Shown here in pieces: positions 4,761 to 20,598 of a stretch of DNA of 41,242 nt (positions within the stretch are counted from its first letter, which is position 1; the number at the start of each line of letters is the position of its first letter). Under the pieces are notes generated by a model that saw only the letters and a program-made list of their open reading frames with translations, made no database searches and was not told where the DNA came from. This stretch comes from Verrucomicrobiota bacterium (lineage in GTDB: Bacteria; Verrucomicrobiota; Verrucomicrobiia; Limisphaerales; PALSA-1396). A program made the translations under genes and the position numbers. The stretch spans positions 1-41,242 of the forward strand of contig JACQFP010000071.1 of NCBI GenBank assembly GCA_016200005.1. The letters are read 5' to 3'.

Positions 4761-5456
4761 TCACGAGCCGTCAGGCTCTGTGGTTATGAGTAAGTTTTGC
4801 AGTTCGTAACCGAGTAAATCGCCAATCCGTTCGATGCTGACATCGGCCGGCGGGTAGCTGGACAGAATCTTCGGATCGTGGGCGTAATGTCCTTGCCGGG
4901 GGAAAACAGTTGTCACTCGTGAATCCCAACTCTTTTTGACCGCGGCCAGAATGCGCAGTTTGTCATCCACCAACACGTAATGTTTGGCGGGATAACGTCG
5001 CTCAACTTCAGCCAGTTCGTGTTCTTTGTGAACGTAAATGAGAACGTTGCCGCCGACCGCTTCGAATAGACCGGAGCGATCCACTTTGCGCGGCTGAAAA
5101 ACCACGTCGCCATCCGACAGGATGACGGCCGGTCCCCATTGCTTGACGTGCTCCACAACATCAAGCGAGTTCGGAAAGAGCCGGTTCGCGAAGGGATAGT
5201 CCACCAGGAAGCGGGACACCTCGAAGAGACGCGGGTCGTGCGGCTGCTCGCTCCGGTAGCGTTGCAGCGCGCCAAGGTAATCGGCGTAACCAAGCTCAGT
5301 CCGCAACTGCTCGAAGATGGCCCAGTAGCGTTGCGCCCGCTCCGGTCCGACCCTGCTGTCAAGGTGGCGTTTGAGGTCGGCGGTCACGCGGTCGTTGTCG
5401 AGCAGGGTATTGTCCACGTCGAACAGAAAGACGATTGGATGAATTGTTTCGCTCAT
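4761..5456 (-). CDS. HAD-superfamily hydrolase, translationally coupled to the polymerase fusion gene
   Basis: A 231-residue haloacid dehalogenase-type phosphatase or phosphohydrolase. Motif I is FLFDVDNTLLD, with nucleophile Asp13 and general acid Asp15. Motif II is VILSDGD, and the acidic motif IV is YVLVDDK. An all-helical cap lies between motifs I and II (about residues 22-105). The substrate cannot be told from sequence. Its ATG overlaps the TGA of the giant polymerase gene (ATGA arrangement, 5453-5456), so it should be translated with that gene and induced with the SOS operon. A role in nucleotide pool control or damaged-nucleotide removal would suit the context but is inference. Confidence 0.8.
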   Translation of the reverse strand: MSETIHPIVFLFDVDNTLLDNDRVTADLKRHLDSRVGPERAQRYWAIFEQLRTELGYADYLGALQRYRSEQPHDPRLFEVSRFLVDYPFANRLFPNSLDVVEHVKQWGPAVILSDGDVVFQPRKVDRSGLFEAVGGNVLIYVHKEHELAEVERRYPAKHYVLVDDKLRILAAVKKSWDSRVTTVFPRQGHYAHDPKILSSYPPADVSIERIGDLLGYELQNLLITTEPDGS

Positions 5457-8400
5457 GATGATTGCATTGTCGTGCGAGGTTTCCCGGCGCGCAACACCCG
5501 CAAGGAGAACCCTCGACCGTTCTCGAACGGTTCGACGGTGGCGGTAATTTCGAGCACTGGATAACGCACGGTCGCCAACCCATAACTCTTGTACGTCGCC
5601 GCGAACAGTTCAGTTTCCACCATGCCCGTCCAATCCGCCAGCGTCAGAAATTTCATCGGCTCGCCGGTGATTTGATGATGGACGCGCTGTTCAATCACCA
5701 ATCCGCAAGTGACGACTTCTTCGCCGACGTGTTCACCCAGTCGCGCCACCGGGCAATACGTTTCCCACGCGACGTTGTTGTAAAGTTCAAGCGGATGTCC
5801 GCTCGCGGTGAAGCCGAGCAATTCCGTTTCCCATTCCAGACGCTCGCGCCGCGTCGGCTCGCGGAGCAGGGAGGGATTTTGGACGAGGAAATCAGAAACC
5901 GCGTCTGCGCCGGCATCAAAATCAAATTCCAGGTTCCGACCTTTGATTTCGGATTTCGGATTTCGGATTTCGGATTTCACGAGACGCTGCGCGTCCCAAA
6001 ATTGCGCCGTGCGCGCCTGCCCGAACTCGTCGAAAGCACCCACCCGGATCATGGACTCGATTTCCTCCGGCGACGGCAACACACGGCAATAAAAATCGCG
6101 GAGCGAATCGAACGGGCCGCGTTCGCGTTCGCGAAGAATCGCGTCCTTGGTTTTTTCAGCAAGACCTTTGACGCGAAGCAGCGGCACGCGGATGGTGTTG
6201 CCGTGCGGCGCAAAGGCCGGTCCAGGTTCGTTCGCCGATGGCGGCAACAGCTTCAATCCGAGCCGATGACATTCGAGGACATAGACGAGCGGATTGTAGA
6301 AGCCCTTGCCGTTGGTCAGCACGGCGGCCATGAATTCAGCAGGGAAGTAGCGCTTGAGCCACGCCGATTGGTACGCCTCGACGCCATACGCGGTGCTGTG
6401 CGCTTTGCAGAAGGCGTAACCCGCGAAGCCGGTCACGAGTCCCCACACTTCGACGGTCTTCTCCGGCGAGTGACCGCGCGCCAAAGCAGATGCAAAAAAC
6501 TCGCCGCGAATTTCCTCGATGACGGCGCGCTTTTGTTTGTTGAGCGCACGGCGGAGCACGTCGGCGCGGCCCGGTGGCAAGCCGGCGAATGCTTCGCAGA
6601 GTTGCAGGATATGTTCCTCGTAAACCACCAGTCCGTAGGTGCTCCGCAAGCACGCTTCCAACGACGGATGCGGATAGGTCACCGGTTCAAGACCCTGATA
6701 GCGCCGCGTGAACGACAACTTCTTGCCTTCGTTGGCTGCGCCGGGCCGGATGACGCTGACGATGGCAATGAGGCCGTCAATCTCGCGCACGTTGCACATC
6801 CGGCAGAGGCTCGTCATCGCGGGCGATTCGATGTGATGCACCGCGCGCGCGCTGCCTTCGGCAATCATTTCCCAAACATTCGGGTCGCACCACGGTTCTT
6901 CCGTGGCCGCCGACGTGAGGAGGCGGTCGGGTGGAGGCGAGGCGGGTGGGCCGGTGGGAAAGTGAGCAGAGGAGAAAAGGAGAAAAGGAGAAAAGGAGCT
7001 TTTCTCACTTTCCCACCTTCCCACTCTCCCACCTGCCAGATCCGTTCTGGTTGCGACGCACCGATCCAAATCCACTTCGATGCCGCGCTTGCCGAGCGTC
7101 GCCTTCACGTCGCGCATGGCTGCGAGACCGCCTTGCGCGAGGATGTCCATCTTCACGAGTCCGATGGTCTCCACCGCGTCCATGTCGAACTGCGTCGTGG
7201 CGTAGCCTTTGTTGGCGATGAAGGTCGGTGTCAACTCGTGCATCGGCTGGCGCGAAAGCACGAGGCCGCAGGGGTGCATCTTTGGATAGCGCGGCACGCC
7301 GTCGAGGAACTCCGCCATTTCCAACGCCGTCCGGTACGGTTCTTCGTCAAAGGGCAGGTCGCGGTTTTCAGGACTCGCGCGCAGCATCTCAACCAAACCA
7401 GCGCCGCCACTGGGCGTCGGTTCGTCCGGCACCCAACCGCCGCCAAAGCTCCACGGGAAGTGATCGGTGAACTTCCTCACTTCGCGCTCTGCCACGCCGA
7501 GAACTTTGGCAACTTCCGCGAACGCGCTCCGCGCTTGGAAAGTTGAGAACCCACCCACGACGGCGCAATGCTCGCGGCCGTATTTCTCGAAGATGAGCTT
7601 CACCACGTCATCTTTGAAGTCGTGCGCGAAGTCGATGTCGATGTCCGGCAGTTTGTTCAGCGCCATGCGTTCCTTGTTGAGGAAGCGGCGGAAATAAAGG
7701 TCGAAGCGAATCGGGCAGACGCTGCTGATGCCAAGACAATGGCAGACAAGACTGTCCGCCGCGCTGCCGCGCGTGATCCACTCAATGCCGCGCCGCCGGC
7801 ATTCCTGAAGAAAATCCCAGGTGATGAGGAAATATTCCTCGTAGCCGACCTCGTTGATCATGCCGAGTTCCGTTTCGATTTGTGATTGGCGATTTGCGAT
7901 CTGCGATTTGGGGTAACGACGACGGAGTCCTTCAAGGACAAGCCGCCGCAGAAACTCGCTCGGCGGTGAACCATCCGGTGGCGTGAACGCCGGGAACTGC
8001 GGCTTGCCGAAGGGCAGATCGAAATTGCAGCGCTCGGCAATCTCGCATGTGTGGCGAAGCCAGTCGGGATGTTGCTGGCAGGCAGCCGCCATTTCGGCAG
8101 GCGTGCGGAAATGAAATCGCCCGCTGCGCAACTTGTCCGGGTGCTCCTGCTGCAAAAGCGTCAGCGTGCGGATGCTTTGCACGATGTCGTATTTCTGCCG
8201 GTCCTCCGGTGTCGCGTAGCGGATTGGCGGACAGGCGGCGATGGGAAAGCCCTTCATCCCGTCCCTCTCCATGAAGCTCAATGAACATCGAACATTCAAC
8301 ATCCAACGCCCAACATCCAAGGATGGCCGAAATGCGGAGCATTGGATGTTCGGCATTGAATGTTGGGTGTTGAATGTTTGATCAGATCGTCTCGCAGCCA

Positions 8401-10084
8401 TCTGGTAGAAACGGTCGGGAAACATCTCCGCCAGTTGCGTGTCCTCGCTGACGGCGATCAGTCCGTCGGTGAAGCCGTTGAGTTCCTCGCGGCGAAATGG
8501 GGAATGTTGCTGCGCGGCAACGGAAGCTTCGTCGCCGTTGCTCGCCGTCAATTCCGCATGACGTGACAACAGGCGGCAGAGGTTATGATAACCTCGCGGT
8601 GACTCGACGTAGAGAAGCAACGGCTTGTCGCCGACGCGCAATTCCGTACCCAGAATCGGTTTCACGCCGGCTTTCTTTGCTGCTTCAACGAACTCAACCG
8701 CGCCGTGCAGGTTGCCCGTGTCCGTGAGCGCGACGGCAGGCAAGCCATGCTGCTTGGCCAGTTGCACAATGGCCGCCGGCGACAGTGTGGAATCGAGAAA
8801 CGAATAGTGACTATGCGCGCGCAGAGGGACGTAGCAACTGGTCCATTGGCGATTTACGATTTGCGATTTGTGATTTTGAAGCGTGAGCTTCGTTACCTCA
8901 GCTACGACAGCTTCACGAGGAGCATCGCGCAGTTGAAAATCGTGGCCGCGCAAGATGATTTGCTGACCACGCGCGCGGCGCAAATCATCCACGACGCCGG
9001 CCAATCGTCGCCGGGCTTCGTGTTGTCGGGCGGCGCGTTCGAGCGGCAACTCGCCGCGGAAGAGGCCGTCATAGACATTCGAGAGTTTCAGGGAAACCAT
9101 CCGCAGGCTCACGCGCCGCTTCCACGCCTGCTTCAGCATCGTGTGAATGCGCCCGTAAACGTCCGTTTCGAGATCGGTTGGTTCGGGCAGGCTCTCGCCG
9201 CGCTGATCTTCAGCCATGTCGTTGTAACACACCTTGACCGTCAGCGTGCGGATGCTTTTGCCATCGGCGCGCACCTTGGCCATGAGTTCGTCCGCCATCC
9301 GACGCAACACGGCTTCGGCGTATTTCTCATCCGTGAGGTCGGCTGCGAAGGTTTCCTGTTTGCTGTAGGACTTGGCCGGTTCGCACAACGGCACGACGGG
9401 CCGGTCATCAATGCCGTTGGCGAATTGTTTGAGTGACACCGCCAGCTTGCCGAGCAGCAGGTTCAACAGTTCGAGCGGTGTCGCCGCGATGTGCTTGATG
9501 TGGGCCAGCCCCGCCGCGTTCAAGCGCGACGCGGTCTTTGGTCCAATGCCCGGCAGCCAGTGGTTCGGGAGCGGATGCAAAAATGGAATTTCGTGTCCGG
9601 GCAACACCTGCGCAAAGGCCGCAGGTTTGTGCAACTTGGAAGCGATTTGACTGATGAGCTTGTTCGTGCCGATGCCTTCGCTGACGGAAATTTTGAGTGA
9701 TTGCCGGATGGCGGCGCGGATGGTTTGCGCGACGTCAATGGACGGTTTACGAACGCCGCTCAAGTCGAAGTAGCCCTCGTCAATGGAAGCAATCTCCACA
9801 TCCGGCGTGAAATCCTGCGCGTAGCTGAACATCCACCGGGAAAAATGTTCGTACTTGTCGAAGTCGCCGGGCAACACGATGAGCTTGGGGCAGAGCTTCC
9901 GCGCCCGCACGGTCGGCATGGGCGTGAACACGCCGAACTTCCGCGCTTCGTAGGATGCCGACGCGATGATGCCGCGCTTCTCACCGCCGACCGCGACGGG
10001 CTTGCCGCGCAACCGGGAGTCGGCGGCTTGTTCCACGGACGCGAAGAACGCGTCCGCATCGAGATGGACGATGACGCGGGGCAC
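5453..10084 (-). CDS. DinB (Y-family) - DnaE2-like (C-family) DNA polymerase fusion
   Basis: A single 1543-residue reading frame with GTG start. Residues 1-400 are a full Y-family polymerase: HLDADAFFASVE with metal ligand Asp9, steric-gate region Phe13/Phe14, the YEARKFGV signature, SIDEGYFDLS with catalytic Asp102-Glu103, an HhH motif (LPGIGPKTASRL), and a little-finger domain to about 350. Residues 403-414 are a repeat-derived linker. Residues 418-1543 are a C-family alpha subunit of the error-prone type: PHP domain opening PLRAHSHYSFLD, catalytic PDIDIDF (Asp814, Asp816), third Asp980 in GLVKMDILAQGG, and a C-terminal OB domain (LTLADWTGMVETELF). Both halves keep their metal-binding residues, unlike the ImuB partner of ordinary DnaE2 mutasomes. 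No imuA-like gene is nearby. lexA lies 6 bases upstream, so SOS control is expected. DnaE's own start codon is missing. Confidence 0.85.
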   Translation of the reverse strand: MPRVIVHLDADAFFASVEQAADSRLRGKPVAVGGEKRGIIASASYEARKFGVFTPMPTVRARKLCPKLIVLPGDFDKYEHFSRWMFSYAQDFTPDVEIASIDEGYFDLSGVRKPSIDVAQTIRAAIRQSLKISVSEGIGTNKLISQIASKLHKPAAFAQVLPGHEIPFLHPLPNHWLPGIGPKTASRLNAAGLAHIKHIAATPLELLNLLLGKLAVSLKQFANGIDDRPVVPLCEPAKSYSKQETFAADLTDEKYAEAVLRRMADELMAKVRADGKSIRTLTVKVCYNDMAEDQRGESLPEPTDLETDVYGRIHTMLKQAWKRRVSLRMVSLKLSNVYDGLFRGELPLERAARQHEARRRLAGVVDDLRRARGQQIILRGHDFQLRDAPREAVVAEVTKLTLQNHKSQIVNRQWTSCYVPLRAHSHYSFLDSTLSPAAIVQLAKQHGLPAVALTDTGNLHGAVEFVEAAKKAGVKPILGTELRVGDKPLLLYVESPRGYHNLCRLLSRHAELTASNGDEASVAAQQHSPFRREELNGFTDGLIAVSEDTQLAEMFPDRFYQMAARRSDQTFNTQHSMPNIQCSAFRPSLDVGRWMLNVRCSLSFMERDGMKGFPIAACPPIRYATPEDRQKYDIVQSIRTLTLLQQEHPDKLRSGRFHFRTPAEMAAACQQHPDWLRHTCEIAERCNFDLPFGKPQFPAFTPPDGSPPSEFLRRLVLEGLRRRYPKSQIANRQSQIETELGMINEVGYEEYFLITWDFLQECRRRGIEWITRGSAADSLVCHCLGISSVCPIRFDLYFRRFLNKERMALNKLPDIDIDFAHDFKDDVVKLIFEKYGREHCAVVGGFSTFQARSAFAEVAKVLGVAEREVRKFTDHFPWSFGGGWVPDEPTPSGGAGLVEMLRASPENRDLPFDEEPYRTALEMAEFLDGVPRYPKMHPCGLVLSRQPMHELTPTFIANKGYATTQFDMDAVETIGLVKMDILAQGGLAAMRDVKATLGKRGIEVDLDRCVATRTDLAGGRVGRWESEKSSFSPFLLFSSAHFPTGPPASPPPDRLLTSAATEEPWCDPNVWEMIAEGSARAVHHIESPAMTSLCRMCNVREIDGLIAIVSVIRPGAANEGKKLSFTRRYQGLEPVTYPHPSLEACLRSTYGLVVYEEHILQLCEAFAGLPPGRADVLRRALNKQKRAVIEEIRGEFFASALARGHSPEKTVEVWGLVTGFAGYAFCKAHSTAYGVEAYQSAWLKRYFPAEFMAAVLTNGKGFYNPLVYVLECHRLGLKLLPPSANEPGPAFAPHGNTIRVPLLRVKGLAEKTKDAILRERERGPFDSLRDFYCRVLPSPEEIESMIRVGAFDEFGQARTAQFWDAQRLVKSEIRNPKSEIKGRNLEFDFDAGADAVSDFLVQNPSLLREPTRRERLEWETELLGFTASGHPLELYNNVAWETYCPVARLGEHVGEEVVTCGLVIEQRVHHQITGEPMKFLTLADWTGMVETELFAATYKSYGLATVRYPVLEITATVEPFENGRGFSLRVLRAGKPRTTMQSS
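5941..5984. repeat. In-frame short tandem repeat inside the polymerase gene (GGATTTC unit)
   Basis: On the plus strand the 7-base unit TTTCGGA recurs about five times (GATTTCGGATTTCGGATTTC and on). It is translated in the polymerase as KSEIRNPKSEIKG, at about residues 1367-1381, an insertion near the beginning of the C-terminal part of the DnaE half. The reading frame is preserved. Confidence 0.65.
6953..7017. repeat. In-frame inverted repeat with inner tandem units inside the polymerase gene
   Basis: A perfect 14-bp inverted repeat, GGTGGGAAAGTGAG (6953-6966) with CTCACTTTCCCACC (7004-7017), encloses about three 9-base units of AGGAGAAAA. The flanking sequence (about 6926-7043) is similar in character. 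It is translated as a Ser/Phe/Pro-rich insertion at about residues 1014-1053 of the polymerase fusion, between conserved DnaE blocks, and keeps the frame. Confidence 0.7.
7873..7915. repeat. In-frame GCGATTTG-type repeat inside the polymerase gene
   Basis: The plus strand reads CGATTTGTGATTGGCGATTT then GCGATCTGCGATTTGGG, a degenerate tandem of about 7-8 bases. The polymerase reads it as PKSQIANRQSQIE (about residues 723-736), which interrupts the sequence between LRRRY and ELGMINEVGYEEYF. It is the same family as the repeat at the fusion junction (8846-8878). Confidence 0.65.
8291..8378. repeat. In-frame large inverted repeat inside the polymerase gene
   Basis: Arms of about 30-37 bases: the left arm starts AACATTCAACATCCAACG (8291) and the right arm ends TGTTGGGTGTTGAATGTT (8378), near-complementary with a small internal loop. 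It is translated as an insertion of about 40 residues (containing FNTQHSMPNIQCSAF) at residues 565-605, in the PHP-to-palm region of the DnaE half, without breaking the frame. Confidence 0.7.
8846..8878. repeat. Repeat copy forming the DinB-DnaE fusion linker
   Basis: The plus strand reads TTGGCGATTTACGATTTGCG followed by ATTTGTGATTTTG, the same degenerate GCGATTTG family as at 7873-7915. It is translated as QNHKSQIVNRQ (residues 403-413) and lies exactly where the Y-family part ends and the PHP domain of the C-family part begins. Confidence 0.7.
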
Positions 10085-10090
10085 GGTCGA

Positions 10091-10714
10091 TCATTTGCGT
10101 TTGCGGATGAGCGCGACCATCACGCCCTGGATGACCAGTTCACTGGCCGGAATCATTTTCGGATAATGCGGGTTTTCGGCGCGGAGGAACGGCTTACCGC
10201 GTTCCATCGCGAAGGTCTTGAGTGTGGACTCGTTGTCGATCAGCGCGGCCACCACGTCGCCGTTGCGCGGCGTCATGCCGTGTTCGAGCACGACGAGGTC
10301 GCCGTCCAAGATGCACTTGCCGATCATCGAGTCGCCCCGCACCTCCAACGCGAACGTGCGCGGCGTGGGCTTGAGGCCGAGCGTCTCGATGTCGATGGAA
10401 ACACAGCCTTTGGCTTCCTGCTGGCGGTCGGCAGGGAAGCCGGCGGGGATGGCGCCGTAAATCGGGATGTCCGCGACGCGCTTTCGCAGGGCGTGCAATG
10501 GCGAAACGACGCGCAACGATCGCGCCTGGCCTGGTTCACCGGTCAACAAGGCGCCCTTCTGACGGATCAGGCGGAGGTGATCGGCCACGGTGGTCAGGCT
10601 GCGAAAGCCGAAGCGGTCGGCAATCTCCTGAAAGCTGGGCGTCACGCCGGTTTCATGGCGCGTGGTCTGGATGAAATCGACGATTTGCCGCTGGCGTTTG
10701 GTCAGTTCCTGCAT
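10091..10714 (-). CDS. lexA: LexA repressor
   Basis: A 207-residue LexA-type SOS repressor with autoprotease activity. The N-terminal winged helix begins MQELTKRQRQIVDFIQ and contains the recognition region PSFQEIADRFGFRSLTTVADH. The self-cleavage bond is Ala91-Gly92 in GAIPAGFP. The catalytic dyad is Ser129 (VRGDSMIG) and Lys167 (ESTLKTFAM). Length is usual for the family. It is the first gene of a three-gene operon with the DinB-DnaE fusion (6 bases downstream) and the HAD hydrolase. A perfect palindrome directly abutting its start codon is the likely autoregulatory operator. RecA-stimulated cleavage should release the operon during DNA damage. Confidence 0.93.
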   Translation of the reverse strand: MQELTKRQRQIVDFIQTTRHETGVTPSFQEIADRFGFRSLTTVADHLRLIRQKGALLTGEPGQARSLRVVSPLHALRKRVADIPIYGAIPAGFPADRQQEAKGCVSIDIETLGLKPTPRTFALEVRGDSMIGKCILDGDLVVLEHGMTPRNGDVVAALIDNESTLKTFAMERGKPFLRAENPHYPKMIPASELVIQGVMVALIRKRK

Positions 10715-10736
10715 ATACCGTATGGATATACGGTAT
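10715..10736. promoter_or_regulatory. Putative LexA operator
   Basis: A perfect 22-bp palindrome, ATACCGTAT-N4-ATACGGTAT, whose edge touches the lexA start codon. It differs from the known gamma-proteobacterial and Firmicute SOS boxes. A TTGACA sequence on the minus strand (10757-10752) may be the -35 element; the -10 element would then lie inside the palindrome, though no good match is found at 17-base spacing. No Shine-Dalgarno is possible between operator and ATG. Confidence 0.7.
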
Positions 10737-10770: not shown

Positions 10771-11721
10771 TCAGACCTTCGACCCCGCCTGTTCCAGCAT
10801 GGCATCAATGGTCGCGAGCGCGTTGCCTTCCAGTCGGTTGTTGACGTAGATGAAAGTCTTTCGCTGGCCCCCCGTGGCCACGCCTTCCTTGATCAATTTC
10901 GCGCCGGCAGCGCGGGCCTCCGCGTCCGGTTCTTTGACGCGGTCGTACGGACTGAACAGATCGACGGCCTCCTGATACTTGCGGCCCGGCTTGAGCAAGA
11001 ACCGCGCGCCGCACAGCTTCGGATTGGTGAGACTGTCCGGCAACGCCATCTGCTCGCCCACCGGCGGCATGTCCGCCCAACTGTTGAAAACGTGCGCGAC
11101 ACCGTGCCGCCGCAGGACGGCGAAATAGTCCGGGTGCAGGAAATGTTTGTTCCGGATTTCCACGCCATAAGGCCAGCCGCTGGGAATGTTTTCCAGGAAA
11201 CGGTCGAGGTCGGCGACAAAGTCGCGGCCATGCTGATAATCGCTTGGATAAAAGTGCGAGAATTCGAACATGAGCAGGCCGACATTCTCGCGGAACGGAT
11301 CGCACGGCTTGAGGAAGGCCGAGGCGAACAGGTCCGCATTCAGAAAATTCGCGTTGGGTTTTCCGGCGCGGATGCCGAACCTCGGCTGGTTGGTGAACTT
11401 TTTGACGGTGATTTCATCGGTGACTTTGAACGCGAACTGAAAATCCCTTGGCACTTGCGACACCATGCCTTCGAGGTAGCGCCGGTCGGGAAACTTGTAG
11501 TAGGCCGCATCCACGCAGACCGTCTTGAAGACTTCGGCGTACTCGGCCAGGCACTGTTTCTCAAAACGGCTTTCGGCGACCTTGCCGCGCCAGAGGTAAC
11601 GAGATTCGTCGTAGAGCAGGCCGCGCCAGCCGGCGTATTTCCACGAGGACGTGCCGATGAACACGCCTTTGGCCGCCAGGGACGCGGCTGTTCTTTTCAT
11701 TCGTTCACGCTCGAAAGCCAT
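10771..11721 (-). CDS. DUF72 domain protein
   Basis: A 316-residue protein of the DUF72 (YecE-like) family, a TIM-barrel-like fold of unknown function. Supporting features are the opening GVFIGTSSWKYAGWRG, the FKTVCVDAAYYKFP segment with its conserved aromatic residues, FQFAFKVTDEIT, the mid-protein block GLLMFEFSHFYPSD, YGVEIRNKHFL, and the late KTFIYVNNRLEGNA where family members usually have a YxxxNNxxxG pattern. An alternative ATG exists at 11700. It ends 34 bases before the LexA operator and reads in the same direction, so read-through into lexA is possible, but lexA has its own control site. Biochemical role unknown. Confidence 0.85.
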   Translation of the reverse strand: MAFERERMKRTAASLAAKGVFIGTSSWKYAGWRGLLYDESRYLWRGKVAESRFEKQCLAEYAEVFKTVCVDAAYYKFPDRRYLEGMVSQVPRDFQFAFKVTDEITVKKFTNQPRFGIRAGKPNANFLNADLFASAFLKPCDPFRENVGLLMFEFSHFYPSDYQHGRDFVADLDRFLENIPSGWPYGVEIRNKHFLHPDYFAVLRRHGVAHVFNSWADMPPVGEQMALPDSLTNPKLCGARFLLKPGRKYQEAVDLFSPYDRVKEPDAEARAAGAKLIKEGVATGGQRKTFIYVNNRLEGNALATIDAMLEQAGSKV

Positions 11722-14815: not shown

Positions 14816-16873
14816 TCAACTAGCCGCCAGACGCATCGCCGCAAAAAGATTTTTTCCAGAATCAACCGTCACCGGTTGCTTCGCCTTTTCATCCGCCATT
14901 TCCACCAACTCCGGCGGCAATTCCTTGAGGAACGGCGACGGATGACACGGCATCAGTTGTCCGTATTTCTTGCGGCCGCCGCAATGACTGAGCGTCAACG
15001 TCTGCATCGCGCGCGTGATGGCGACATAAAACAGCCGGCGCTCTTCGTCCAGCGTCCCTTCCACCTTGGAACGAGAATGAGGCAGGAGACCATCCTCCAA
15101 ACCGACGATATAGACGTGCGGAAACTCCAATCCCTTGCAACTGTGAATGGTGATCAACGTCACGGCATCGCCTTCATTGTCCTTCTCCTCCTCGCGGTCG
15201 GCATCGAGCATCAAGTCTTCCAGAAACGTTTCGAGTCGTTTCGCCGCCGGCGCGGTGGCGGCTGTCTGGCTGTCGAGTGTGGCGACCAGCTCCTTGAGAT
15301 TGCGAACGCGATTCTCAGCCGTCTCGAGGTTCTTTTCCGAACGCCGCAGTTCGTTCCAATAACTCGTTTCTTCCAGAAAACTTTCCGCCCAGATTTGCAA
15401 GGAAACCGTTTGCTCACTCGCTAAACTCGCCCGCGTGATTTCGATCAATTCAATGAACGCCTGCAAACTCTCGCGCGTTTTGGAGGTAAACGTGGCCTGC
15501 ACGTCGGTATGCTTCATGGCGGCATAGACCGAGCAATGCTTTTCCTGACTGGCCGCGAGCAAACGTTCCATCGTCACATCGCCGAGTCCGCGCGCGGGCA
15601 CGTTGGCGATGCGCAACAGGTTCACGTCGTCGTGCGGATTGACGAACGTTTTGAGATACGCCAGAAAATCCCGGACCTCACGCCGGTCAAAAAAACTCTG
15701 CCCGCCGATCAGATGATAACGCACGCCGGCCTGGCGCAGCGCGGTTTCCAGCGGATGCGACTGAATGTTCGTGCGAAAGAGAATCGCCTGCTCCGACCAC
15801 GGAATGCGCTGGGCGAGGCGGGCGTAATCAATCAGTTCAACCACGGTGCGGGCTTCCTCTTCGTCATCGGTGAAGACGTGCAGCGTGATTTTTGTTCCCT
15901 GACCTTTTTGCGACCAGAGATGTTTGCCGCGGCGACGCGCGTTGTTCTTGATCACGGCATTGGCGGCGCTCAGAATCGTGGCGGTGGAACGATAGTTTTG
16001 TTCGAGCTTGATGACTTTGACTTCCGGATAATGTTTTTCCAGATCGAGCAGGTTGGCGACTTCCGCGCCGCGCCAGCCGTAAATGCTCTGGTCGTCATCG
16101 CCCACGACGCACAGGTTGCGATGTTCGCGCGTCAGTTGATGCACGAGCTTGAACTGAGCGGCGTTGGTGTCCTGATATTCATCCACCATCACGTAACGAA
16201 ATCGCTCGCGACAGGCCTCGAGGGCGTCGGGATGCTCGGTGAACAGTTTCAACGTCAGCAGAATCAAATCGTCGAAATCCACCGCGTTACAGGCGCGCAA
16301 CGCGGTTTCATAACGGGAACGAACATGCTCGGCCAGCGCGGTCACGTTCGGGTCGCCAAACGCCGCCGCCGGCGTCCCGCCGTTCTTGTAACGACTCAGC
16401 AAACTCAGGACCGCTGCCGGGTCGGTCTTTTCTCCTTTTGTGGAGATGTGGCTGAGAATCTTTTTGATGGCGCTGAGCTGTTCCGCCTCATCGTAAATGA
16501 CGAAATTCTTTTTGTAGCCGAGCCGATGAATATGCTGGCGCAGAATCCGGACGCAGAGCGAATGAAACGTGCAGACGGTGGGGCGGTCGGGACGTGTTGC
16601 GTGTTGCGTGTTGCGTGAATCCGCACTCGACGGCGGCCTTACGCTCCGAGGAATCAACTTTGTCACGCGCTCCTGCATTTCGCGCGCGGCCTTGTTGGTG
16701 AAGGTGACGCCCAGAATGCGGCCGGGCGCGATGCCCCGTTCGATCAGATGTGCGATGCGATGCGTGATCACCCGCGTCTTGCCGGTCCCCGCGCCGGCAA
16801 GAATTAAAAGCGGGCCATTGATCGTCTCAACGGCGAGCCGCTGCTGGGGATTGAGCGAACTTAAATTCAACAT
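14816..16873 (-). CDS. UvrD/PcrA-type superfamily 1A DNA helicase
   Basis: About 685 residues, starting at ATG 16873 (MLNLSSLNPQQRLAVE); the longer frame to 16927 is disfavoured because the family begins here. Motifs in order: Q motif LNPQQRLAV, Walker A LAGAGTGKT, motif Ia GVTFTNKAAREM, motif II MVDEYQDTN, motif III VGDDDQSIYGWRGA, motif IV LEQNYRS, motif V HSCKGLEFPHV and motif VI LFYVAITRAM. This is a 3-to-5 translocase acting in nucleotide excision repair, mismatch repair or removal of proteins from forks; sequence alone does not separate UvrD from PcrA or Rep. A short in-frame repeat insert lies between motif Ia and the CTFHSLCVR block. No SOS palindrome was seen upstream. Confidence 0.92.
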   Translation of the reverse strand: MLNLSSLNPQQRLAVETINGPLLILAGAGTGKTRVITHRIAHLIERGIAPGRILGVTFTNKAAREMQERVTKLIPRSVRPPSSADSRNTQHATRPDRPTVCTFHSLCVRILRQHIHRLGYKKNFVIYDEAEQLSAIKKILSHISTKGEKTDPAAVLSLLSRYKNGGTPAAAFGDPNVTALAEHVRSRYETALRACNAVDFDDLILLTLKLFTEHPDALEACRERFRYVMVDEYQDTNAAQFKLVHQLTREHRNLCVVGDDDQSIYGWRGAEVANLLDLEKHYPEVKVIKLEQNYRSTATILSAANAVIKNNARRRGKHLWSQKGQGTKITLHVFTDDEEEARTVVELIDYARLAQRIPWSEQAILFRTNIQSHPLETALRQAGVRYHLIGGQSFFDRREVRDFLAYLKTFVNPHDDVNLLRIANVPARGLGDVTMERLLAASQEKHCSVYAAMKHTDVQATFTSKTRESLQAFIELIEITRASLASEQTVSLQIWAESFLEETSYWNELRRSEKNLETAENRVRNLKELVATLDSQTAATAPAAKRLETFLEDLMLDADREEEKDNEGDAVTLITIHSCKGLEFPHVYIVGLEDGLLPHSRSKVEGTLDEERRLFYVAITRAMQTLTLSHCGGRKKYGQLMPCHPSPFLKELPPELVEMADEKAKQPVTVDSGKNLFAAMRLAAS
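16594..16617. repeat. In-frame GTGTTGC tandem repeat inside the helicase gene
   Basis: Three or more copies of a 7-base unit (plus strand GTGTTGCGTGTTGCGTGTTG). The helicase reads it as RNTQHAT within the segment SRNTQHATRPDRP, about residues 85-93, just before the conserved VCTFHSLCVR block. Most UvrD-like proteins have a much shorter connection here. Confidence 0.6.
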
Positions 16874-17065
16874 GCGCGCCGGAGTGTAGTGCGCTGGAAA
16901 GTGAAGGCAAGGAGAAGCGCGCGTCACCTCATCTTCTCAGAACCCTCCTGCAGCAATCGGATCTTCCACAAAACACGGTTAACTTAATAACGGGAATACC
17001 GGTAAAACTTTTTCTCCGCTCAGTGCGCGCGAGTTTTCCAACCGACTCGCGCCGTGTTAGGCCGC

Positions 17066-18870: not shown

Positions 18871-20598
18871 TCACTCCACCGCCACCGGCGCGAGACGGTT
18901 CGCCGCATTCTTCTGCTCAAACTCCTTGCACCAGCCCTTGATTTCCGTGTCGTTGAAAATCCTTCCGATCACGCGCCGCAGCAGGCCTTTTAAATTCGGA
19001 TTCTCCAGGTCGCGCAACGAACGGATAGCTTCCTCTTTGTAAGTCTCCAGCAAGGTGCGGGCGCGCTCATCGGCTTTCAACTCAGTGTAAAGCGCTTCGA
19101 TGTGTTCGGTGTTCAGTCCAGCTTCAGGGGAACGGCGCCAGAGCAATTCGAGACTTTGTTTCCTCTCGCCAGTCGCGCGTTCATAAGCCACTGCCAACAA
19201 CAAGCCGGGGCGCATCCCCGCGATGTCATTGGTTTCGCCCTTGTCACCCAGATCGCTCAGGTCATCGCGGATTTGATACGCGATACCGAGTGCTTCGCTG
19301 TAAGCCGCGAGCGCGTCCGAAACTTCCTCGTGCTGTTCCGTGCCCGCATAGAGCGCACCCAACCGCAACGCCACTTCAAACGCGGGCGCGGTCTTTTGCC
19401 GGAAAATGTCGAGCACCTGCAACGGCGTCAACGGCTCCGGCTTGCGCGCCCAACACAACTCCGCGCCCTGACCGCGACAAAGCTGGCGCTGGCCTTGCGC
19501 CGCCGCGAGCAGCATTTCAGCTTTTTGTTCACCCGAAATCCGCGACGCGCCGATCAGGCGGTAACCTTCGCCGATGAGCAAATCCCCGACGTTAAGCGCC
19601 ACAGCCACGCCGTGCTCCTCGTGCAACGTTTTTTCGCCATAACGAATTCTGTCGTTGTCTTCGATGTCATCGTGGATGAGCGACGCTTTGTGAAAACATT
19701 CGATGGCCACGGCGATTTTGCGGATGTCCTCCGGCAATTTCTCGCCGGGCGTTTCGCGCAACGCTTGAAAAGCGGCGACGGTGAGGAACGGCCGCCAACG
19801 TTTGCCGGCGCGCATGAGCCACTCGCGGGCAATTCTCTCGGTCTCACCCTCCGCGTTGCCCATGATGAGAGCGAGGGACGGCGGCGTGAACCAGAAATCG
19901 ACTTCATCCCGCAGCGCGCCGAGATCAAGCCGCCGCGTTTTGTCATCGCTCGTGAGGTGGAGGTAATCCCAGACCCAGTCCAGATCGACCGTCGTATCGA
20001 TGCAATCGTCCTGCAAAAGCGGCACCGCCACACCCGGGATCGCTGCCGCTTCCATGTAAGGAAACGCCCGCTCCAGCACACTGAGACAACTGACCCCGAC
20101 GATGGCCTCGATCTTGCCGGTTTGAATCAACGTCATGACGATCGCCGATCCTTCCGCGACGAGCACGGCGTAGCCGAGCCTTTCCGCTTCCGCCTGCAGA
20201 TCCTGGATGGAGCAAAGCCCGCATTGTTTGCAGAGCAGACCGAATTCGTCGAAAGGCGCGGGGCACTTGCTTTCCACGCGCAAACATTTCGGGAGCAGCA
20301 GCAGTCGCCGTTCAAATGGGACGGACGCCAGTGCTTCGCGCCACATTTCGTTGTTGATGAGCACGCCGATGTAGTCGCGATAAATGGCGTCGCACTTGAG
20401 CATCGCGACGATTTTGTCCGCGTGAACTTTTAGTTCGTCCGCTGGCAGCGGCGGCACGGGATTGTATTCAGCCACGTAATGGCGGACGAGTTGCAGGATG
20501 TGCGCCCGCTCAATTGTGGTCTGAGGAATATTTTTCTTGGGCGCGCGAACGCGCTGCTGAGGAACGGGGCGCGGAATGACAAGGGTCGCAGTTTCCAT
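18871..20598 (-). CDS. DUF116 - polyprenyl diphosphate synthase fusion
   Basis: A 575-residue two-domain protein. Residues about 40-235 match DUF116: LLLPKCLRVESKCPAPFDEF followed by CKQCGLC and later IEAIVGVSC. Cys105, 112, 123, 126, 129 and 171 could bind an Fe-S cluster. Residues about 250-555 are a trans-isoprenyl diphosphate synthase: GKRWRP for diphosphate binding, the first Asp-rich motif HDDIED (Asp310, 311, 314), and the second Asp-rich motif RDDLSDLGD. This domain condenses isopentenyl diphosphate with an allylic diphosphate; chain length is not predicted. The start is ATG, 3 bases after the radical SAM gene's stop. The join of a Cys-rich DUF116 to a prenyl synthase is unusual and may tie prenyl production to the redox proteins upstream. 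Confidence 0.85.
   Translation of the reverse strand: METATLVIPRPVPQQRVRAPKKNIPQTTIERAHILQLVRHYVAEYNPVPPLPADELKVHADKIVAMLKCDAIYRDYIGVLINNEMWREALASVPFERRLLLLPKCLRVESKCPAPFDEFGLLCKQCGLCSIQDLQAEAERLGYAVLVAEGSAIVMTLIQTGKIEAIVGVSCLSVLERAFPYMEAAAIPGVAVPLLQDDCIDTTVDLDWVWDYLHLTSDDKTRRLDLGALRDEVDFWFTPPSLALIMGNAEGETERIAREWLMRAGKRWRPFLTVAAFQALRETPGEKLPEDIRKIAVAIECFHKASLIHDDIEDNDRIRYGEKTLHEEHGVAVALNVGDLLIGEGYRLIGASRISGEQKAEMLLAAAQGQRQLCRGQGAELCWARKPEPLTPLQVLDIFRQKTAPAFEVALRLGALYAGTEQHEEVSDALAAYSEALGIAYQIRDDLSDLGDKGETNDIAGMRPGLLLAVAYERATGERKQSLELLWRRSPEAGLNTEHIEALYTELKADERARTLLETYKEEAIRSLRDLENPNLKGLLRRVIGRIFNDTEIKGWCKEFEQKNAANRLAPVAVE

Follow-up and report, generated by a model that had tools for sequence, protein, structure and literature searches.

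In the ImuA-ImuB-DnaE2 mutasome, the C-family polymerase DnaE2 is partnered, under LexA-linked control, by ImuA and by a Y-family protein, ImuB, which is a catalytically dead adaptor carrying an ImuB-C domain and a RecA N-terminal (RecA-NT) motif. A pair lacking ImuA, in which an active Y-family polymerase (PolY) bearing a RecA-NT motif is associated with DnaE2B, has been predicted for Bacteroidota (PMC12926913, PMC6511836), and a DnaE2-PolY pairing was noted in 2019 in Cellulophaga algicola (PMC6511836). The RecA-NT motif is predicted to dock RecA (PMC6511836, PMC12926913), and a degenerate PHP active site is typical of DnaE2 (PMC12926913). Here we analyzed a stretch of 41,242 nt from a Verrucomicrobiota bacterium (contig JACQFP010000071.1), referred to as the window, in which a Y-family and a DnaE2-type C-family polymerase are encoded by a single open reading frame. 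We propose that this gene encodes a covalent DnaE2-PolY-RecA translesion mutasome, which would be SOS-induced, docked on RecA, made as a single chain and held on the clamp through its DnaE2 half; based on comparisons of sequences, the probability of this reading can be put at about 0.6.

The closest known kind of system is the predicted DnaE2B-PolY-RecA mutasome and not ImuA-ImuB-DnaE2. With the former, the fusion shares an active-looking Y-family polymerase, a RecA-NT-like motif and a DnaE2, with no ImuA found; the differences are that two separate genes are replaced by one polypeptide, that the Bacteroidota PolYs keep the QxxLF clamp motif (QINLF, QIDLF, QMDLF) which the PolY of the fusion has lost, and that lexA, with a likely operator of its own, lies directly upstream of the fusion. 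With the latter it has in common the LexA-linked partnership and the RecA-NT motif on the Y-family partner, whereas its PolY is intact. A preliminary description of this locus, made from the sequence, had chosen the ImuB mutasome for comparison; it had rightly treated ImuB as a dead adaptor, and the ImuA-less pair of active PolY and DnaE2B is the proper yardstick. In a tree of our own, judged without a published reference tree, the DnaE2 of the fusions groups with those of Bacteroidota, Desulfosarcina and "bacterium S144_13", apart from the Novosphingobium imuA-imuB-dnaE2 row (95), which the Streptomyces row joins, although long branches meet there. The same description had reported no imuA nearby, which is true of the genes next door (lexA, DUF72 and HAD). 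A search of the whole genome with PF00154 recovered recA and nothing else, and the ImuA model gave only a sub-threshold match on recA; since this model passed its cut-off in 0/14 control genomes, the search is a weak one. No Pfam domain was identified between IMS_C and PHP in the fusion, in a search which included no ImuB-C model.

Along the polypeptide, the Y-family polymerase is followed by the RecA-NT-like motif, a linker predicted to be disordered and the DnaE2-type polymerase. The Pfam domains listed in Table 1 all scored above their curated cut-offs, and residues 418-1494 were assigned, also above the cut-off, to the DnaE superfamily (NCBIfam TIGR00594). The order of these domains and the 1543-codon open frame bear out the claim that a Y-family and then a C-family polymerase are read in one frame, and the residues named in support of it (D9, D102-E103, PDIDIDF, and D980) were all recovered by alignment. 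The PolY half resembles DinB (Pol IV), aligning with Pol IV structures over residues 1-381, and the Foldseek top 50 for a model of the PolY-PHP part includes Y-family polymerases, the first listed being a DPO41-RPOZ model. It differs from DinB in having a RecA-NT-like tail, an attached DnaE2 and no clamp motif of its own.

The two active sites appear to be intact. We aligned 65 full-length fusions, consisting of that of the window, 53 from named genomes and 11 further frames, some genomes contributing several copies. The residues D9, F13 (which we take to be the steric gate of the Y-family half), E103, D814, D816, D818, and D980 were each conserved in 65/65 sequences, and D102 in 64/65, being replaced by E in one Prosthecobacter copy; the conservation of D9, F13, D102, and E103 holds across copies down to 50% identity. 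In the window the motifs read D9, S100-I-D102-E103, P813-DIDIDF-819, and K978-M-D980. The idea that the Y half might be an ImuB was rejected in view of the catalytic residues retained. The metal site of the PHP domain is degenerate: the first metal His is present in 28/65 fusions and the second in 22/65, and other residues occupy the positions of the late D and H in the window ("CPPIRY"). The "full PHP-containing DnaE" of the preliminary description therefore stands as regards the fold, but not as a working PHP exonuclease. The C-family half thus has the features of a DnaE2: D814, D816, and D980 are invariant, the PHP site is not conserved, and the genome encodes a separate replicative dnaE (a 1267-aa frame on contig C54) along with one recA and one lexA (in what follows, G, L, and C numbers denote genomes, loci and contigs, respectively).

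The tail of the PolY half was found to match RecA N-termini in one hhalign comparison (probability 68, E 4.9e-5). Among the controls, 11 PolY windows without the motif reached 0.019 at best, while a 12th, overlapping the motif, gave 6.5e-5; 40 column shuffles scored no higher than 15.2, vs. 24.9 for the real match. Since this RecA-NT-like motif lies between the two halves, RecA can plausibly take the place of ImuA. The QxxLF clamp motif is absent from the PolY tail of all the fusions (0/65), while it is present in 14/15 unfused rows outside the fused group, namely 8/9 operon rows (the Streptomyces row lacks it), 5/5 PolY-only rows of family f66 and G248. By pattern, it is also absent from the unfused rows within the group (0/8: G052, G071, G200, G231, G181, G067, G032, and L164), where G032 reads ELPLF at the site. 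The fact that the split members of the clade share this loss suggests that it was probably a single event, possibly predating the fusion. On the DnaE2 side, a Q-motif, mostly QGWLL or QGWLI, was detected by pattern matching in 44/65 fusions, at a position which by eye resembles that occupied by QSSLF in the DnaE1 encoded by the genome of the window. In family f66, which belongs to the same class, the stand-alone PolYs (L098, L099, L100, L101, and L103) have both QxxLF and, by eye, a RecA-NT-like tail, and no DnaE2 was found with them at 1e-100; they form a candidate PolY-RecA pair.

The one-frame PolY-DnaE2 fusion is real and not an accident of assembly. A search for other proteins carrying both halves, as the preliminary description had suggested, was successful: 18 of 57 other genomes carry them in a single full-length open frame of 1429-1681 aa, and a scan of named genomes, in which the best 80 were kept, yielded 78 loci, at least 53 of which have both whole halves in one frame. 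Among 245 genomes of the order (own genome included), the PolY half was scored as present, at E 1e-60 or better, in 109, of which 78 have a frame of at least 1269 aa; three of these 78 are flawed (G157 has a TGA within the match, the start of PolY is out of frame in G039, and the contig of G183 starts within PolY), and the DnaE2 content of the long frames was checked by sequence in the 18 genomes and in G039, G068, and G097, the remaining frames resting on length. The other 31 PolY genomes comprise nine with frames of 550-997 aa running past PolY, five with a whole PolY and a DnaE2 at another locus, six with PolY in which DnaE2 was not found at 1e-100 (G078 being cut at a contig start) and eleven in which the gene is broken or lies at a contig edge. 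Of 387 genomes drawn from across the phylum, 36 have the PolY half, including three full-length fusions (the window's own, G582 with 1467 aa and G431 with 1420 aa) and a frame of G538 which spans the PolY-DnaE2 junction before the contig ends; judging from their length, the other frames consist of PolY alone. The 782-aa PolY frame of G591 was rejected as a fusion, its additional length preceding PolY. The order-wide set and the named-genome scan overlap in that they share some records, and neither amounts to an exhaustive survey. The named-genome fusions occur in Limisphaerales and Pedosphaera bins, Prosthecobacter, other Verrucomicrobiaceae, Spartobacteria, and one Opitutaceae bin. Two Prosthecobacter bins contain more than one whole fusion: two (L160, L161) and three (L167, L169, L176), respectively. 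No fusion was identified on a phage, no phage record covering 80% of the query, and none on a plasmid among the seven matches examined of 50 listed, out of at least 5000 matching records.

The pair also occurs unfused in relatives. In the Phycisphaerae loci L175 and L180, lexA, polY, and dnaE2 are consecutive but separate, dnaE2 starting 50 and 19 bp past the PolY stop, which itself lies at most about 20 residues from the RecA-NT motif. This operon has the same gene order as the fusion locus and contains the closest unfused DnaE2 and some of the closest PolYs in the trees; it differs in having separate frames and a PolY which keeps its clamp motif. Adjacent separate frames, which had been expected in relatives from the outset, are also present in "bacterium S144_13" (L172), in a subdivision 6 genome (L164) and on three Bacteroidota plasmids (Emticicia, Adhaeribacter, and Chryseobacterium), where dinB and dnaE overlap or are 13 bp apart; a fourth, unannotated Bacteroidota plasmid carries PolY and DnaE2 in two frames, and a Desulfosarcina plasmid carries lexA, DUF72, a Y-family relative, and dnaE2. 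Within the order, the halves lie at unlinked loci in G052, G071, G200, G231, and G181, the DnaE2 of the last having internal stops. PolY was present and DnaE2 not found at 1e-100 in G067 and five f32 genomes, nor was DnaE2 found at this threshold in any of the 8/8 f66 PolY-only genomes tested.

The trees were built in quick mode without bootstrap and include some long branches. In the DnaE2 tree, a fused clade of 43 rows (support of 100 in the Shimodaira-Hasegawa-like approximate likelihood ratio test) comprises 37 fused rows, four split rows and two others, L164 with its adjacent separate genes and G031, cut by a contig edge; the two Phycisphaerae rows adjoin this clade. The PolY tree likewise unites fused and in-group split rows, but less firmly (84), and places the f66 PolYs at about the same distance as those of Phycisphaerae. 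The split genomes fall inside the fused clade, all five of them in the PolY tree and the four with an unbroken DnaE2 in the DnaE2 tree. Separate proteins in relatives, which had been named as a finding that would speak against the fusion, do exist, but in a minority (5/109 with unlinked halves) and as later splits, which do not overturn it. The simplest account would be that of one fusion in Verrucomicrobiota, followed by splits.

The lexA gene is listed beside 49 of the 53 full-length fusions among the best 80 of the named-genome scan. An inverted repeat with seven-base arms, a four-base gap and at most one mismatch occurs within 60 nt upstream of lexA at 53/67 loci; after removing duplicates, it was present at 48/61 distinct lexA loci, vs. 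a mean of 4.1 and a maximum of 8/61 in 100 shuffles. The half-sites differ from one family to another while the symmetry is kept (ACTGTTC, ACTATAC, ACTATCC, ACCGTAT, ACTGCTT, ACTGGTC, GGTGAAC, and more). A K or R as the third residue of the LexA recognition helix goes with A at the fourth base in 12/12 distinct pairs, as compared with 2/26 for other residues (Fisher 3e-8), although this rule was noticed before being tested and the value takes no account of relatedness. Since the repeat covaries with the recognition helix of LexA, that at 10716-10735 is probably the LexA operator. The motif TGTTC-N4-GAACA, which we assumed to be that of LexA in Verrucomicrobia, was rejected: its core pattern shows no enrichment in the window (12 matches, allowing up to one mismatch, vs. 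21.8 expected), and the inverted repeat is the better candidate. Two unrelated inverted repeats were seen near the unlinked dnaE2 of G200.

Taken in this light, we infer that damage would inactivate the neighboring LexA, so that a single chain would be made, which the RecA-NT motif would dock on RecA at the lesion. The DnaE2 half would bring the chain to the clamp, so that a single anchor would serve both active sites. The PolY half, which is DinB-like, catalytically complete and lacking a clamp motif of its own, might be swung in on the flexible linker and insert opposite lesions, and DnaE2, devoid of a working PHP proofreading site, might then extend; alternatively, the two sites might divide the work by type of lesion.

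Several observations weigh against this proposal. Of 30 genomes, 27 were found to have RecA, and the fusion-bearing G011 is among the other three. All members of the clade have lost the PolY clamp motif, so that this loss could be older than the fusion instead of a consequence of it. The DnaE2 of the window reads NLEFDFDAG, without a canonical Q-motif, and is thus one of the 21/65 lacking it by pattern. AlphaFold modeling of residues 1-660 (PolY to PHP) gave confident PolY and PHP domains, with a predicted local distance difference test (pLDDT) score below 50 at residues 392-415, and a predicted template modeling score of 0.44; this low value gives a fixed PolY-PHP arrangement no support. The operator was not found near the recA of the same genome or near the unlinked dnaE2 of G052, G071, G200, and G231, and its 20-bp pattern matches the genome exactly at one place, and at five with up to three mismatches, vs. 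nine for the control. The LexA beside the fusion may therefore serve mainly its own cassette, degenerate sites having possibly been missed.

Among the other explanations, it might be argued that PolY, like ImuB, has come to serve chiefly as a structural adaptor, bringing RecA to a DnaE2 which does all the synthesis, and that the PolY active site persists only through recent descent. ImuB and several iPolYs are indeed dead partners of DnaE2 (PMC12926913), the Desulfosarcina and Streptomyces partners have lost the catalytic residues, S144_13 has DD instead of DE, and both the lost clamp motif and the E found in place of D102 in one Prosthecobacter copy go in the same direction. Neutral retention would not give the near-invariance of D9, F13, D102, and E103 at such divergence, however, and we consider a mainly structural role rather unlikely. 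It might also be that the chain is cut in the linker after translation, or that DnaE2 is made from an internal start as well, in which case two ordinary enzymes would result. The linker does vary, from 33 to 120 residues in the 51 fusions in which it was delimited (14/65 were not), it is predicted to be disordered, at least one in-frame ATG, GTG, or TTG occurs in 47/51 linkers, and the halves are encoded separately in five genomes of the order. But 34/51 linkers have no in-frame ATG, a start codon accompanied by a Shine-Dalgarno-like stretch is present in just 8/51, and no conserved cleavage motif was seen when the linker alignment was inspected by eye. Residues 380-439 of the window contain no in-frame ATG, GTG, or TTG, so that no internal start would give an intact PHP domain there. 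A separate DnaE2 start was therefore dismissed, none being usable in the window and none consistent across the 51 fusions, and production of two enzymes appears very unlikely.

The fact that the contigs of G104, G172, and G208 end at the linker could be taken to suggest a sequencing or assembly artefact. The same architecture was found order-wide, in other groups of Verrucomicrobiota, in the single-cell genome L123 and in the single-contig genome G097, which has a 1477-aa fusion frame, and these independent genomes already refute such an artefact, the probability of which is practically negligible; a chance frame is excluded by the domain content and its conservation across genomes. The history of the window's own copy is another matter, since its halves have different nearest kin: the PolY groups with HRSG_c8 and G068, and the DnaE2 with G052, NGEE, Loclat, UBA693, and LacPavin. 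Approximately unbiased tests on 28 shared rows rejected joint placement both ways (p 2e-12 and 1.5e-4), the groups having been chosen after viewing the trees, and the best partner switches around residues 361-420 (8825-9004), some flanking windows being non-discriminating. The closest lexA genes to that of the window are those of L116 and HRSG. Such discordant halves would be expected if the linker had been a site of recombination, or equally if the assembly had been misjoined at the heptamer repeat within it. This copy might thus be chimeric or decaying, with PolY and DnaE2 of different lineages joined at the repeat and function impaired by inserts, as its two large in-frame inserts and heptamer repeats would suggest, together with a 79-aa frame on contig C57 (36287-36466; L005, L073), which shares about 80% identity with the C-terminus of DnaE2 and is apparently the remnant of a second dnaE2 copy, and with the broken copies of G001, a member of the same genus. 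The frame nevertheless stays open through all the inserts and both catalytic sets are intact, and an impaired chimera, which strikes us as decidedly unlikely, would explain this copy only, the fusion standing in many other genomes.

No description of a PolY-DnaE2 fusion was found in the titles, abstracts and main-text passages searched, among them those of PMC12926913, PMC3919608, PMC6511836, PMC3765255, PMC8565304, and PMC1839093; the main texts of two surveys and the passages searched in three papers from the same group mention none. What appears undescribed is the covalent form, the absence of the clamp motif and the spread across Verrucomicrobiota; the parts themselves, like their association, were already known or predicted. 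We would put it slightly above even odds that this is the first natural single-chain two-polymerase translesion machine to be noticed, in which a Y-family inserter and a C-family extender would act in cis, with a RecA docking motif between them, one of two clamp anchors lost and a seemingly dedicated LexA operator, and which would go back to a lexA-polY-dnaE2 operon fused a single time in Verrucomicrobiota, its halves having been swapped between lineages at the linker and split again in a few genomes. How polymerases share one lesion, and which roles RecA and the clamp play in the hand-over, is hard to study with separable parts. With a fixed 1:1 stoichiometry and one clamp anchor removed, single-site mutants of this protein could allow insertion to be told apart from extension, and docking on RecA from docking on the clamp. 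The fusion also provides Rosetta-stone evidence that the DnaE2-PolY complexes predicted in other phyla are real, while the discordant trees of the halves and the drifting operator which covaries with the LexA helix make the cassette a natural series in which the exchange of modules and the specificity of repressors could be studied.

Table 1. Features of the fusion gene and its surroundings (positions are those of the window; residues are those of the fusion protein).
Feature	Position	Strand	Basis or remark
PolY::DnaE2 fusion	5453..10084	-	1543 codons/aa, GTG start, zero internal stops; conserved in relatives
Y-family catalytic domain (IMS, residues 8-150)	9635..10063	-	Pfam; D9 at 10058-10060
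D102-E103 of Y-family SIDE motif	9776..9781	-	Alignment
Little-finger domain (IMS_C, residues 238-337)	9074..9373	-	Pfam
Degenerate clamp-motif site (E-L-P-L-E, residues 345-349)	9038..9052	-	QxxLF position of unfused out-group PolYs
RecA-NT-like motif (residues 356-383)	8936..9019	-	hhalign
Linker, predicted disordered (residues 392-415)	8840..8911	-	AlphaFold pLDDT <50; heptamer repeat 8845-8876 (Tandem Repeats Finder)
PHP domain, degenerate metal site (residues 421-546)	8447..8824	-	Pfam, alignment
In-frame insertion of dispersed genomic repeat (residues ~570-606)	8267..8377	-	Missing from aligned relatives
C-family domain (DNA_pol3_alpha, residues 711-983)	7136..7954	-	Pfam
PDIDIDF with catalytic D814, D816	7628..7648	-	Alignment
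D980, third catalytic Asp	7145..7147	-	Alignment
Second large in-frame insert, repeat-like (residues ~1012-1056)	6917..7051	-	Sequence here in few relatives
C-family finger domain (DNA_pol3_finger, residues 1064-1203)	6476..6895	-	Pfam
Helix-hairpin-helix region (HHH_6, residues 1276-1359)	6008..6259	-	Pfam
HAD-type hydrolase gene	4761..5456	-	4-bp overlap with fusion end
lexA	10091..10714	-	6 bp upstream of fusion; only LexA found in genome
Inverted repeat TACCGTAT-N4-ATACGGTA	10716..10735	.	Proposed LexA operator; arms of 8 bp around a 4-bp gap, 1 bp from the lexA start codon
DUF72 gene	10771..11721	-	Upstream of lexA; near cassette in some relatives

Repeat-like elements lie in frame at five places inside the fusion gene (8267-8377, 6917-7051, 7876-7910, 5945-5978, and 8845-8876), the frame being open through each of them, and at least one is a dispersed genomic repeat. 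DNA similar to the insert at 8267..8377 was found at 18 other places of the same genome (28 rows, two of which are the insert itself), many of them on both strands, while the second insert contains short tandem repeats at 6919-7034 (Tandem Repeats Finder).

As regards the neighboring genes, no match to the HAD-type hydrolase was found at the loci examined. DUF72 recurs near the cassette at L087, L110, L112, L115, L122, L133, L149, L158, L175, L183, L184, and L188, and this recurrence, which extends to the Desulfosarcina plasmid, suggests a link between DUF72 and the damage response. In G104 (L087, 685-1815), the cassette is immediately preceded by a second, plain Y-family polymerase gene with 33% identity, flanked by DUF72 and lexA. 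Approximately 4 kb upstream of lexA in the window, a gene of the UvrD/Rep helicase type is present on the same strand (14816-16927, minus strand). Further along, a single frame at 18871-20598 (minus strand) combines DUF116 and polyprenyl synthetase domains, and is adjoined by a radical SAM gene.

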